DNA from: Acidobacteriota bacterium
Lineage (GTDB): Bacteria; Acidobacteriota; Vicinamibacteria; Vicinamibacterales; 2-12-FULL-66-21
Assembly: GCA_013813355.1 (NCBI GenBank)
Contig: JACCRT010000035.1
Coordinates: forward strand, 1 to 45,611
DNA: 45,611 nt
Direction: 5' to 3'
Shown here: piece after piece, positions 2,253 through 35,539 of the stretch
How the letters are laid out: the number at the start of each line of letters is the position of its first letter
Numbering within the stretch: the first letter of the stretch is position 1
Position numbers and translations under genes: made by a program
The notes under the pieces: model-generated
Databases searched by the model: none
What the model saw: only the letters and a program-made list of their open reading frames with translations
What the model was told of the DNA's origin: nothing

Positions 2253-2350
2253 AACTCAGAACTCAGAATCTTGAAGTCAGAACGAGGAACTCAGAATCCG
2301 CATTCCGACGACCGCATTCTGAGTTCAACATTCTGAGTTCTTAGTTTCAA
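2253..2350. repeat. 7-bp-period array, 14 heptads in one register (AACTCAG arm / ATTCTGA-GTTCAAC arm, inverted)
   Basis: AACTCAG AACTCAG AATCTTG AAGTCAG AACGAGG AACTCAG ... ATTCTGA GTTCAAC ATTCTGA GTTCTTA GTTTCAA. Confidence 0.85.
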
Positions 2351-2359
2351 GGGGCAGAC

Positions 2360-2695
2360 ATGGCTTCACCGTTCAGTGACAAGATCCGCATCCGCCTGAA
2401 GGCGTACGACAACCGGGTGCTGGACCAGTCGACGACCGAGATTGTCGACACGGCCCGGCGCACCGGTGCGCGCCTGGCGGGGCCGATCCCGCTCCCGACC
2501 GAGAAGAACAAGTGGACGGTGCTCCGTTCGCCGCACGTCGACAAGAAGTCGCGCGAGCAGTTCGAGCTGCGCACGCACAAGCGGCTGATTGACATCTTCG
2601 AGCCGACGCCGCAGACGGTGGATGCGCTGATGAAGCTCGATCTGCCCGCCGGGGTGGACGTCGAGATCAAGGCGTTCGGCAAGGAACATAAATAG
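2360..2695 (+). CDS. rpsJ: Ribosomal protein S10
   Basis: [30 protein letters not shown]. Confidence 0.97.
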
Positions 2696-2703
2696 GTCGA
2701 ACC

Positions 2704-3396
2704 ATGCTCAACGGAATCCTAGGCAAGAAAATCGGCATGACGCAGGTGTTCGCCCCGGACGGCACCGTGACGCCGGCGACCGTGATCAAGGCGGGCCCGT
2801 GCGTGGTGGTGCAGGCGAAGACGGCGGGCGCCGACGGTTACGAGGCCGTGCAGATCGGGCTGGTGGAAGAGACGCCCGCCCGGGCGCGCAAACCGCTCGC
2901 CGGGCATTACAAGAAGGCCGGCGTTCCGCCGACCCGCGTGCGCCGCGAGGTGAAGCTGGCGGCCGGCGCCGAGCCGGTCCAGGCGGGCACGCAGGTGCTG
3001 GTCGACGGGCTGTTCGCCGATGGCGATCGCGTGGACGTGATTGGCGTCACCCGCGGGAAGGGTTTCCAGGGCGTTGTCCGGCGGCACCACTTCCGCGGCG
3101 GCGCCGCCTCGCACGGTTCGATGTTCCACCGGGCCCCGGGCTCGATTGGCGCCTCGTCCTTCCCGTCGCGCGTCGTGAAGGGCATGCGCGCTGCCGGCCG
3201 GATGGGCGGTGACCGCGTGACGATTCGGAACCTCAAGGTCGTCCGCGTGGACGCCGAGAACAACCTGCTGGTGGTGTGCGGGGCAATCCCCGGCGCGCCG
3301 GGCGGCTACGTCCTGATTCGCAAGGCGATCGCGGCCAAACGCGTGGCCGTGGCGCAGGCCGAGAAGCCGCAGAAGGTCCAGGTCAAGAAGCGCTAG
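2704..3396 (+). CDS. rplC: Ribosomal protein L3
   Basis: [26 protein letters not shown]. Confidence 0.97.
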
Positions 3397-3398
3397 CC

Positions 3399-4019
3399 AT
3401 GAAACTCGACATCGTCAATACCAACAACGAGAAAGTCGGCGCCCTGGAGCTGAACGACGACGTGTTCGGCGGGCGCGTGCAGTCCGAGCTGATCTGGGAG
3501 TCGGTCGTCCAGCAGAACGCGGCGGACCGGCGCGGCACGCACGCGACGAAGAACCGGGCGGCGGTCAGCGGCAGCGGCAAGAAGCCGTGGCGGCAAAAGG
3601 GCACCGGGCGCGCGCGCGTGGGTGACATTCGCAACCCGATTTGGCGCAAGGGCGGTACGGTCTTCGGGCCGCAGCCCCGCAGCTACGAGTACGACCTGCC
3701 CAAGAAGGTGCGGCTCGGTGCGTTGCGCGCGGCCATTGCCCAGAAGATGCAGGACGGCGCCATGGTCGTGGTCGACGCGCTCGAGGGGGGCGACGGCAAG
3801 ACGAAGGCGACCGTCGAGATGTTCGAACGCCTGGGGCTTCGCGGCAAGACGCTGGTGATCGACGTGCAGCTCGACGAGGTCTTCACCCGGTCGGCGCGCA
3901 ACATCACCGGGGTGAGGCTGATGCCTTCGGCGCGGGTGACCGCCCGCGACGTGATGGACACGGCGCACGTGGTGGCGACGCGCGGCGCGCTCGAGAAGCT
4001 GCAGGACATTCTGGCGTAG
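3399..4019 (+). CDS. rplD: Ribosomal protein L4
   Basis: MKLDIVNTNNEKVGALELND; ATG at 3399 just after the rplC stop (the longer ORF from 3276 is rejected). Confidence 0.95.
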   Translation: MKLDIVNTNNEKVGALELNDDVFGGRVQSELIWESVVQQNAADRRGTHATKNRAAVSGSGKKPWRQKGTGRARVGDIRNPIWRKGGTVFGPQPRSYEYDLPKKVRLGALRAAIAQKMQDGAMVVVDALEGGDGKTKATVEMFERLGLRGKTLVIDVQLDEVFTRSARNITGVRLMPSARVTARDVMDTAHVVATRGALEKLQDILA

Positions 4020-4061
4020 GGGCGCTTTTGCGACCCGCCCTTACACAGACAGGAATCCGAC

Positions 4062-33567: not shown

Positions 33568-33589
33568 CCCCGACCTTCAGGTCGGGCGT
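33568..33589. repeat. Palindrome CCCCGACCTTCAGGTCGGGCGT
   Basis: Inverted repeat in the pilS-pilR gap; same family as 6796-6814 and 16054-16073. Confidence 0.55.
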
Positions 33590-33603
33590 ACAGGCACCAT
33601 CCT

Positions 33604-35028
33604 ATGACAACCGAAACAATCGCTGAATCGCCGCCGCAGGCCGCACAGGCGTCCCGCATCCTCGTCGTGGACGACGAGCGCTCGATGCGGGAGATGCTCG
33701 AGATCCTGCTCCGGCGGGAAGGGTATGACGTGTCGGTTGCCGAGAACGGGACGGCGGCCATCGCGCTGCTGCAGCAGCGGCCGTTCGACATGCTGATCTC
33801 GGATATTCGGATGCCGGACGTGAGCGGCGTGGAAGTGCTGCGGACCGCCAAGGCGCTGAACCCGAAGATCATCGGCATCATGGTGACGGCATACGGATCG
33901 AAGGAATCGATTCAGGAGGTCCTGCGGCTCCAGGCGGCCGACTATCTGGACAAGCCGTTCAACGTGGAGGAGCTGAAGTTCCGGATCCGAAAGGAACTCG
34001 AACGCACGCGGCTGCAGGAGGAAAACGTGCTGCTCAAGCGGGTCCTCCGCAACTCGCACCGCTTCGACGACATCGTCGGCGGCAGCCCGTCGATGGCGGC
34101 CGTGTTCCAGCTTGTCGAAACCATCGCCCCCACGACCAGCACCGTGCTCATCACGGGCGAGAGCGGCACCGGCAAGGAGCTCATTGCGCGGGCCATTCAC
34201 TTCAACTCGATGCGCAAGGACCGCCCGTTCGTGGCGGTCAACTGCGGGGCGCTGTCGGAGACGCTGCTGGATTCGGAGTTGTTCGGCCACGTCCGAGGAG
34301 CGTTCACGGGCGCGGACACGAACAAGAAGGGGCTCATCGAGGTCGCAGAGAAGGGGACGATTTTCCTCGACGAGATCGGCGAGATGAGCCCGCTGGTTCA
34401 GGTGAAGCTGCTGCGCGTGCTGCAGGAGCGCAAGTTCCGCCGGCTGGGGGGCACCGACGAGATCGATGCCGACATCCGGATCCTTGCGGCCACCAACCGG
34501 GACCTCTCGAAGCTCGTGGCCGAGGGCACGTTCCGCGAGGACCTGTTCTACCGAATCAACGTCATCCCGCTGCGGCTGCCGCCGTTGCGCGAGCGCGCCG
34601 ACGACATTCCGCTGCTGGCGGGGCACTTCCTCGCGAAGTTCGCGGCGGCCATGGGAAAGGACATCACGGGCATTGTTCCCGCGGCCATGGCGCTGCTGCA
34701 GGTATACGGGTGGCCCGGGAACATCCGGGAGCTGGAGAATGCCATGGAACGGGCCGTGGCGCTCGAACCCGGTTCAGTCATCCAGGTGGCCAGCCTGCCG
34801 GAGGCGGTGCTCGGGCGCGCCGTTCTGGCCGGGAGGGCCTCCCCGGCCCAGACCGAGGAGTTCCCGGCGAGCGGCTTCGACCTGGAGCAGCACGTCCAGG
34901 ACATCGAGCGGGAGTACATCGCGGAGGCCCTGCGGCGTGCCGGCGGCGTCAAGGTGAGGGCCGCCGAGCTGCTGGGCATGAGTTTCCGGTCGTTCCGGTA
35001 TTACACCAAGAAGTACAACTTGAAGTAG
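33604..35028 (+). CDS. pilR: Sigma-54-dependent response regulator PilR
   Basis: Receiver, AAA+ GESGTGKE and GAFTGA, C-terminal HTH. Confidence 0.95.
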   Translation: MTTETIAESPPQAAQASRILVVDDERSMREMLEILLRREGYDVSVAENGTAAIALLQQRPFDMLISDIRMPDVSGVEVLRTAKALNPKIIGIMVTAYGSKESIQEVLRLQAADYLDKPFNVEELKFRIRKELERTRLQEENVLLKRVLRNSHRFDDIVGGSPSMAAVFQLVETIAPTTSTVLITGESGTGKELIARAIHFNSMRKDRPFVAVNCGALSETLLDSELFGHVRGAFTGADTNKKGLIEVAEKGTIFLDEIGEMSPLVQVKLLRVLQERKFRRLGGTDEIDADIRILAATNRDLSKLVAEGTFREDLFYRINVIPLRLPPLRERADDIPLLAGHFLAKFAAAMGKDITGIVPAAMALLQVYGWPGNIRELENAMERAVALEPGSVIQVASLPEAVLGRAVLAGRASPAQTEEFPASGFDLEQHVQDIEREYIAEALRRAGGVKVRAAELLGMSFRSFRYYTKKYNLK

Positions 35029-35080
35029 ACAGTAGGCAGTAGACAGTAGGCAGTAGACAGTAGGCAGTAGGCAGTAGGAT
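35025..35080. repeat. GTAGGCA/GTAGACA heptad array, 8 units spanning the pilR stop to the S23 start
   Basis: GTAGACA GTAGGCA GTAGACA GTAGGCA GTAGACA GTAGGCA GTAGGCA GTAGGAT(G). Confidence 0.9.
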
Positions 35081-35444
35081 GGCTGGCAAGAACTATCGAG
35101 ACCTGATTGCCTGGCAGCGCGCGATGGATTTTGCCGTTGCGGTTTATGAGGCGACGAAGGCGTTCCCACAGGAGGAGCGGTATGGCCTGACGTCGCAGCT
35201 TCGCCGGTGCAGCGTTTCCATTCCGTCGAATATCGCCGAGGGGCAGGGCCGCCGGAATGATGGTCACTTCAAGCACAGCCTCCAGATGGCGCACGGGTCG
35301 CTGTGCGAGGCGGAAGCCCAGGTGCTCCTGGCGCAGCGCCTGGGGTTTCTGAAGGCTGAGGCCGCCGACCGGCTGCTCGACCAGGCCGGGGAGGTCGGCC
35401 GCCTCGTCACCGGGCTGACCAAATCGCTTGAAGCCCGGAGCTGA
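35079..35444 (+). CDS. Four-helix-bundle protein (S23 / bAvd-like family)
   Basis: NYRDLIAWQRAMDFAVAVYEATKAFPQEERYGLTSQLRRCSVSIPSNIAEGQGR. Confidence 0.93.
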   Translation: MAGKNYRDLIAWQRAMDFAVAVYEATKAFPQEERYGLTSQLRRCSVSIPSNIAEGQGRRNDGHFKHSLQMAHGSLCEAEAQVLLAQRLGFLKAEAADRLLDQAGEVGRLVTGLTKSLEARS

Positions 35445-35512
35445 GCAGCCGGTCAGTCACCCGCGGTGAGCCGGGCTGATAGCCACGCTCGGATTTGGCG
35501 GATTCGCGGCCT

Positions 35513-35539
35513 ACAGCCTACTGCCTACTGCAAGGATCA
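35513..35539. repeat. Right arm: CCTACTG heptads followed by ACTGCAAGGATCA cap
   Basis: Inverted relative to 35025-35080; cap resembles GCTACAAGGATCA at 5258, 15493 and 16635. Confidence 0.78.

Follow-up and report, generated by a model that had tools for sequence, protein, structure and literature searches.

Intergenic heptad arrays and orphan S23 genes in a soil acidobacterium look like parts of one genetic element

Introduction

A ribosomal-protein operon of a soil acidobacterium, order Vicinamibacterales (gp6), carries tandem 7-nt repeats of several different sequences in its intergenic gaps, which raises the question of what produces arrays that share a period and not a sequence. The window analyzed here is the whole 45,611-nt stretch of contig JACCRT010000035.1 (assembly GCA_013813355.1). 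Heptad repeats have so far been reported one genome at a time, with a separate explanation for each. The S23 proteins, one of which is encoded in the window, have to our knowledge had no known function since their discovery in rRNA intervening sequences. From the analysis below, the unusual 7-letter repeats and the orphan S23 genes seem to belong to a single genetic element.

Results

The lag-7 run of each gap was compared with dinucleotide shuffles of the gap's own sequence. Arrays were confirmed in 16 of the 16 gaps named in the initial annotation (p 0.0005-0.008), and no such run relative to shuffles was found in the neighbouring rplR-rpsE, rpsM-rpsK and rpoA-rplQ gaps, which it had not named. 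The arrays away from the intact S23 gene were as follows.

2252..2352, + strand: fusA-rpsJ gap, AACTCAG arm and inverted TTCTGAG arm (TRF; lag-7 p=0.0015; fold z -7.0)
5180..5262, + strand: rplB-rpsS gap, GGCAGCA arm and inverted GCTGCCA arm, then the ACAAGGATCA ribosome-binding region (lag-7 p=0.0005; fold z -7.3)
7703..7767, + strand: rpsQ-rplN gap, AACTCAG arm and inverted TTCTGAG arm (lag-7 p=0.0020; fold z -3.5)
9160..9310, + strand: rplE-rpsN gap, AGCAGGC arm, spacer of ~85 nt, CTGCCGA arm (lag-7 p=0.0005; fold z -3.0)
9509..9614, + strand: rpsN-rpsH gap, AGCTGTC arm and GCTGATA arm (lag-7 p=0.0005)
10026..10112, + strand: rpsH-rplF gap, CAGCCGT arm and GCTGAAA arm (lag-7 p=0.0010; fold z -3.5)
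10659..10689, + strand: rplF-rplR gap, one GGCTGAA array (lag-7 p=0.0015)
15421..15497, + strand: infA-rpmJ gap, AAGGGCTG array and CTGCCTA array (lag-7 p=0.0005)
15624..15656, + strand: rpmJ-rpsM gap, one GGCTGAA array (lag-7 p=0.0005)
16557..16648, + strand: rpsK-rpsD gap, CAGCCAT arm and GCTGATA arm (lag-7 p=0.0005; fold z -3.9)
17284..17357, + strand: rpsD-rpoA gap, degenerate GACTCAG arm and inverted TTCTGAG arm (lag-7 p=0.008; fold z -6.2)
19160..19290, no strand assigned: convergent gap between rplQ and the EF-G paralogue, AACTCAG arms flanking a terminator-like hairpin (lag-7 p=0.0005; fold z -5.4)
21411..21432, - strand: heptad arm GGGCTGATGGCTGAAAGCTGAT immediately 5' of the EF-G paralogue start (gap lag-7 p=0.008)
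29375..29406, + strand: pilB-pilT gap, AAGGCTG array (lag-7 p=0.0005)

The inverted arms described in the initial annotation are real, with folding z-scores of the gaps down to -7, and the families do differ in sequence while having period and architecture in common. The infA-rpmJ gap gave no stable hairpin on folding (z 0.0). The AGCTGTC/GCTGATA arrangement of the rpsN-rpsH gap is also present at that gap in three relatives (G001, G005 and G008). No match to rRNA or any other Rfam family was found within the window.

In a 301-kb sample of the host genome, made up of the window and contigs picked by number, with array densities computed on these stretches, 25 intergenic arrays were detected at lag 7 compared with 0-7 at other lags, and 7 was the only strongly enriched intergenic period. 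As expected from the initial annotation, coding DNA was nearly array-free (0.004/kb in genes versus 0.63/kb in intergenic DNA); tandem 7-nt units are thus enriched in intergenic DNA in the manner of simple repeats. The AGCAGGC family, at up to 3 mismatches, gave 58 matches genome-wide and the reversed pattern 0, and a search at 18/20 identity was too strict and missed most arrays. Concentration in the ribosomal operon holds per kb (5.7 arrays per 10 kb), but the operon is not the exclusive site, since arrays occur genome-wide. Likewise, the 7-nt period is mostly but not strictly constant, as some S23-flanking arrays of relatives have a period of 8 or 9 (L229, L227). An assembly artefact is unlikely because independent assemblies of other species have the same architecture with different heptads, and the contig end at one array (C28) shows that arrays break assemblies rather than the reverse.

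Neutral slippage could produce such a pattern if polymerase prefers 7-nt slips where frame is irrelevant and template switching inverts the arms, the S23 genes being passengers. The arrays avoid genes and are less common in divergent gaps, certain of them are long and almost perfect, and the long simple repeats of many bacteria are preferentially built of 7-nt units; a footprint of slippage has been suggested (Mrazek 2007, cited in PMC4679880). The surroundings of the S23 genes bear on this explanation. Those of the window are listed below.

35024..35078, + strand: (AGTAGGC)n up to the S23 start codon, forming the left arm of the element with the intact S23 gene (lag-7 p=0.0005)
35079..35444, + strand: intact S23 gene, PF05635 23S rRNA intervening-sequence protein (Pfam E 7e-37)
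35507..35531, + strand: right arm of the same element, (GCCTACT)n, in which the heptads of the left arm are inverted (inverted heptad distance 0)
21448..21681, - strand: N-terminally truncated S23 remnant in the gap that precedes the EF-G paralogue (homology to G001 S23, PF05635)

The intact gene is located between pilR and a pilin-like gene. The arrays that had been assigned separately to the pilR-S23 and S23-pilA gaps do exist, but they belong together as the left and right arm of a single element enclosing S23. The encoded protein (121 aa, pI 8.7, four-helix bundle) scored above the curated cut-offs of PF05635 (126.3 bits versus 33.8) and TIGR02436 (122.8 bits versus 24, E 7e-36). Identity with the Avd protein of diversity-generating retroelements was rejected, since the window S23 fell under the curated Avd cut-offs (bAvd 30.3 bits versus 40; DivGenRetAVD 28 versus 80); an Avd search in eight genomes returned one match and no pattern. 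The remnant aligns with residues 40-116 of the G001 S23 protein at 43.6% identity (E 7e-15), matches PF05635 positions 49-105 at E 4.5e-7, under the cut-off, and adjoins GCTGAWR-type heptads; in relatives G001, G003 and G023 the same two genes enclose an intact S23. For the AACTCAG family of the window, no S23 gene could be assigned in the available sequence (genome 57% complete).

Across the order, arrays on both sides within 220 nt were found for 22 of 48 S23 genes, compared with 21 of 278 size-matched controls (Fisher p 5e-10), and in 21 of the 22 doubly flanked genes the arms were the same heptad inverted. The inverted alignment of upstream against downstream flanks had a median of 39 for S23 and 19 for controls (p 1e-16), and pairing the flanks of different S23 genes lowered it to 18. 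The layout of S23 between arms was found again in cyanobacteria, Bacteroidota, Chloroflexi, Pseudomonadota and others. Inverted flanks were significant for plasmid S23 genes (14 cyanobacterial and 1 of Gemmatimonadota; p 6e-4) and in other phyla (p 3e-6), and in Pseudomonadota 10 of 16 S23 loci exceeded the control 95% level, the 16 being those of 28 loci that remained after 12 with no determinable orientation were left out. On the opposite side, 26 of the 48 S23 genes of the order have no two detectable heptad arms, some of these having a period of 8-9 or other inverted flanks.

The heptads beside S23 also recur elsewhere in the same genomes. Within the order, 82 of 161 operon heptads matched S23-flank heptads of the same genome, compared with 21.5 +- 9.7 after shuffling. 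Pseudomonadota, which played no part in forming the idea of an S23-heptad link, served as a prediction test: AGTAGGC arrays numbered 7-65 in each of six genomes with AGTAGGC beside S23 and 0 in 18 of 18 control genomes. Similarly, GGGATTC arrays numbered 167, 112 and 31 in three genomes with a GGGATTC-flanked S23 and 0 in the 15 others searched. The S23 count was correlated with array density over 41 genomes (Spearman 0.58, p 7e-5), also after correction for phylogeny by independent contrasts (r 0.45, p 0.003). Few loci had arrays when other phyla were surveyed; L114 and L148, which were among these few, come from genomes with 7 and 24 S23 matches. Several observations count against a shared element: G004 has operon arrays and no S23 match (genome 87% complete), G042, G051 and G047 have S23 and no operon arrays, and covariation of protein and heptad is seen mainly among near relatives.

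The specific link of the arrays to S23 already speaks against slippage as the whole story, and we consider it an improbable explanation. It does not explain why the same inverted heptad flanks S23 more often than size-matched genes of array-rich genomes, nor why S23-flank heptads predict the dispersed ones, and the smooth decay of arm length that it would produce is not seen, as arm length drops sharply beyond five units.

Relatives contain many heptad families, mostly as two inverted arms of 4-5 units. Comparison of orthologous gaps, suggested in the initial annotation, showed that, among 28 operon gaps, 21 vary in their arrays between members of one family, which rules out base-for-base conserved regulation; the rplC-rplD gap, for example, is either 'CC' or a hairpin of 86-93 nt. 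Loops of the short hairpins are mostly not homologous, the sole exception being one GGCAG subfamily in G007, and copying of whole hairpins is thus not supported. S23 proteins have a median pI of 9.0. Each of the two solved S23 relatives, 2GSC (E 4e-24) and 2RLD, has 5 chains, and the S23 protein XCC0516 has been reported to be a homopentamer (PMC4990558).

Discussion

The arrays are probably the arms of a two-component element made of S23 and heptad hairpins, a reading in which mobility and the binding of heptads by S23 are inferred. The full form, an S23 gene with a heptad array on one side and those heptads in inverted orientation on the other, would be inserted between genes, with a heptad sequence particular to each S23 copy. 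The short forms lacking S23 would be two inverted arms of 4-5 heptads with a small loop, dispersed in intergenic gaps including those of the ribosomal operon, and may have come from loss of the S23 gene or arisen in trans. In mRNA, the arms would form an intercistronic stem reaching up to the next ribosome-binding site. The basic S23 protein may recognize its own element's heptads and in this way cause or favour their spread and upkeep. Counting against this reading, S23 is not known to be a recombinase, and neither movement of an element nor a target-site duplication was observed. The initial proposal of one generating process rather than one spreading sequence was sound in that period and architecture are shared and sequence is not, but it was incomplete in omitting the protein partner, and an explanation with no such partner is unsupported. 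Each heptad family is associated with a particular S23 gene and is found again at many sites of the genome that carries this gene.

In TRAP, RNA wraps around a protein ring. By analogy, arms of 4-5 units and the 7-nt period may, tentatively, reflect wrapping around a homopentameric S23 ring. A broader version, which we regard as possible but rather doubtful, is that S23 proteins are sequence-specific rings binding five of their own heptads, that the 7-nt period corresponds to the distance between neighbouring binding sites on the pentamer, and that these proteins drive a widespread mobile element whose short forms would be the heptads of Xanthomonas, Nostoc/Calothrix, Beggiatoaceae, Geobacter and Acidobacteriota.

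About as improbable as slippage is that the arrays are intercistronic regulatory hairpins, selected for RNase III processing, stability or translation coupling, with S23 as one regulator and spread as a secondary matter. They do occupy gaps between stop codon and ribosome-binding site and fold strongly, the sense strand is G-rich in 58 of 74 S23-flanking heptads, and RNase III cuts the stem ends of rRNA intervening sequences (IVS) that carry S23 ORFs (PMC4990558). Similar proposals exist for TAACTGA repeats (PMC4679880) and for Geobacter sites (PMC2700814). However, the variable presence in operon gaps described above and the arrays in convergent gaps count against this role. A REPIN-RAYT-like system driven by a Y1 transposase resembles the present one in layout, with a repeat-flanked protein gene accompanied by numerous inverted pairs that lack the ORF and lie in that genome too (the RAYT layout is general knowledge), and 42 of 60 relatives have Y1_Tnp genes, but it is very unlikely, because the array-bearing G002 and G004 have no Y1_Tnp match, so that presence of the transposase does not match that of arrays, no Y1_Tnp gene (PF01797) was seen between heptad arms, the flanked gene being S23, and the repeats are tandem heptads instead of REP palindromes.

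Among the known systems close to the two-component element is the 23S rRNA IVS with an S23 ORF (Leptospira, Coxiella), in which an S23-family ORF lies in a stem-loop with terminal inverted repeats; its distribution is sporadic and it has been described as selfish (PMC4990558). An S23 ORF between terminal inverted repeats is likewise found at 35024-35531 of the window and in the 22 doubly flanked S23 genes of the order. In contrast to IVS, which lie in rRNA genes, the window element is in neither a 16S nor a 23S rRNA gene; the present elements lie between protein genes, have arms of tandem heptads, and occur as several coexisting families with dispersed ORF-less copies.

The initial statement that no multi-family system had been described was not quite right, since paired opposite-strand sites of 3-5 tandem hepta- or octanucleotides, in several classes, were reported in Geobacter metallireducens in 2009 (PMC2700814); they were read as sites of IHF/HU or another regulator, and S23 was not mentioned. 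The TAACTGA repeats of marine Beggiatoaceae, cyanobacteria and Bacteroidetes are also intergenic, occur in ribosomal-protein operons too, as described for Beggiatoaceae, and lie shortly upstream of start codons, but they form a single sequence family, nearly all direct, and no S23 link was found in the available portion of the source (PMC4679880). Some present heptads resemble this type (for example, CTGGTAA versus CTGATAA). The GGGAATC / GGGGA(C/T)T repeats of Xanthomonas and Nostoc are dispersed intergenic heptads as well, scarce between divergent genes, preferring four units and variable among relatives, and have been attributed to G-quadruplexes (PMC4692102). Xanthomonas has the S23 protein XCC0516.

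In the part of the literature covered, no paper was found that makes the S23-heptad link. A shared element, if true, would account for both the S23 proteins and the heptad repeats, and would let the flanks of S23 predict the repeat sequence of a genome. It would also mean that ribosomal-protein operons tolerate, or use, rapidly changing hairpins in nearly every gap.

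Heptad arrays in the window and its genome

The initial annotation had reported tandem degenerate 7-nt units (heptad arrays) in 16 intergenic gaps, mostly of the ribosomal operon (fusA to rplQ), and TRF detected them at the same coordinates. When the best lag-7 run per gap was scored against 2000 dinucleotide shuffles, all 16/16 gaps carried lag-7 arrays (p 0.0005-0.008), and no lag-7 signal was found by this test in three adjoining gaps that had been left unnamed. The proposed lag-7 excess was also confirmed across 301 kb of the window's own genome (assembly of 1.22 Mb, 57% complete; genes in sampled stretches called by a simple script), with 25 intergenic arrays at lag 7 and at most 7 at any other lag. 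By its named relatives, the genome belongs to Acidobacteriota gp6 / Vicinamibacterales. Several window gaps were predicted to fold as long stems, which may be candidate RNase III substrates by analogy with the stems of rRNA intervening sequences (PMC4990558).

A terminator-like hairpin lies within AACTCAG arms in the convergent gap between rplQ and the EF-G paralogue (19160-19290). The rpsD-rpoA gap holds a structured element (17357-17425; CCCGCAGCC...GACCTGCGGTGGGAGGCGGG...GGCAGGTC), present at the same gap in the compared genomes G002, G003, G007, G010, G012, G013, and G048 with apparent paired changes. It is possibly an S4/alpha-operon leader; an Rfam search gave no match for it.

S23 genes between inverted heptad arms

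The S23 (PF05635) features of the window are as follows.

35024-35078: AGTAGGC array, first arm of the intact S23 element
35079-35444, plus strand: intact S23 gene
35507-35531: inverse array, second arm
21448-21681, minus strand: S23 remnant without the N-terminal part, 43.6% identity to the S23 of G001

Because the intact gene is flanked by an AGTAGGC array and its inverse, PF05635 was searched in 60 relatives and the flanks were read. Many S23 genes were enclosed by inverted heptad arrays, the heptad differing from gene to gene. Arrays stood on both sides of 22/48 S23 genes, compared with 21/278 size-matched control genes, and the arms were inverted in 21 of these 22; the other 26/48 lacked a detectable pair of heptad arms. 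Inverted alignment of the upstream and downstream S23 flanks scored far above control genes and also above mismatched S23 pairs, the latter partly covering the imbalance that control genes came from three genomes and S23 genes from many. The pattern also occurs in Pontibacter, Chloroflexi, Thermaceae, Cloacimonadota, and Deltaproteobacteria, and on cyanobacterial plasmids, where S23 lies between the two genes of the pairs nrdB/nrdA, cas6/cas4, or cas10/cmr3. The S23 genes of plasmid loci L267, L268, and L272 are within CRISPR-Cas operons (cas6/cas4, cas10/cmr3), two of the three with clear tandem-repeat flanks. Arrays beside S23 in loci L227, L229, L259, and L263, read by eye, have a period of 8 or 9, not 7.

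The remnant lies between a MacB-like permease and the EF-G paralogue, adjoining the heptads just before the latter. S23 is found between the same two genes in G001, G003, and G023 and after the same upstream gene in G007, and the S23 arms at these sites are heptads. The remnant is a case of decay within the window. Three S23 copies or remnants are known in the own genome, and their heptads (AGTAGGC, AAGGATG, and GCTGATG/GCTGAAA) are similar to three of the window's four heptad groups; the fourth group, AACTCAG, has no S23 assigned to it in this 57%-complete assembly.

Dispersed arrays follow the S23 of the same genome

Dispersed arrays follow S23. The operon heptad matched a same-genome S23-flank heptad (at most 1 mismatch) in 82/161 cases, as compared with 21.5 +- 9.7 after shuffling of genome labels. 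Among 41 Vicinamibacterales, mean operon array density was 4.44 per 10 kb with S23 and 0.42 without (independent contrasts, r 0.45, p 0.003); the exceptions were G004, which has arrays and no S23 match, and G042, G051, and G047, which have S23 and no operon arrays. The more alike the S23 proteins, the more alike were their heptads (Mantel p 0.001), chiefly between close relatives.

The prediction was tested in Pseudomonadota genomes outside those behind the hypothesis, by reading S23 flanks first and then searching the predicted heptads. AGTAGGC arrays numbered 65 in G279, 44 in G163, 30 in G179, 16 in G159, 12 in G382, 7 in G128, and 1 in G231, and 0 in G391, G158, G327, and 18 control genomes. 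The S23 flanks of G163, G279, and G128 were known before this search, which itself placed arrays beside S23 matches in G179, G159, and G382 (for example, arrays at G179:C1:2221082-2221561 surround S23 at 2221158). GGGATTC arrays numbered 167 in G391, 112 in G016, and 31 in G022, and none turned up in the remaining 15 genomes searched; GGGATTCGGGATTC precedes the G391 S23, a protein with 65% identity to Xanthomonas XCC0516.

Variation among relatives

The lag-7 pattern was stronger in two relatives, G007 (109 intergenic arrays; 2.1/kb intergenic vs 0.05/kb in genes) and G003 (51 intergenic arrays), than in the own genome. By gap orientation, the share of G007 gaps with arrays was 31% for co-directional, 25% for convergent, and 21% for divergent ones; for divergent gaps it was 7% in G003 and 0% in the own genome. 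In same-family ribosomal operons a heptad hairpin is possible in nearly any gap, with gap, heptad, and unit number varying by genome. The comparison of orthologous gaps proposed initially bore out such dynamics, 21/28 operon gaps (those seen in at least 3 genomes) being variable; in G000, G001, and G006, rplC and rplD are separated by 'CC' or 'CCT', where G005 and G007 carry a hairpin of 86-93 nt. Ribosomal operons outside the order are almost without heptads, exceeding 1 per 10 kb in only 3 of about 74 loci (L114, L148, and L151).

GC hairpins of REP-like type, centred on CTTCAGGC/GCCTGAAG, occur in the rplC-rplD gap of L069 and several gaps of L074, filling operon gaps that carry heptad hairpins in other genomes. 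A long heptad array reaches the end of G000 contig C28 (L024 19557-19638), and heptad arrays therefore break assemblies. A GGCAG hairpin subfamily of G007 shares a conserved loop, GTGATCCACTGC, at 7 places in 420 kb, which suggests that whole hairpins were copied.

Arm length and classification

Arm length peaked at 4-5 units and dropped sharply above five, in S23 flanks and operon alike. S23 proteins are basic, and two solved S23 relatives have five chains each. A homopentameric S23 ring binding one heptad per subunit would yield this arm length, with TRAP as the analogue. Geobacter metallireducens sites that consist of five tandem heptanucleotides and are paired on opposite strands (PMC2700814), and the four-unit preference of Xanthomonas heptad repeats (PMC4692102), are consistent with such a ring.

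In summary, the initial observation was right, and the phenomenon is more general than the sequence alone could show. The heptad arrays are best placed among S23 elements, as a variant of the rRNA intervening-sequence kind that differs in being sited outside rRNA genes and in having dispersed heptad hairpins without an ORF.
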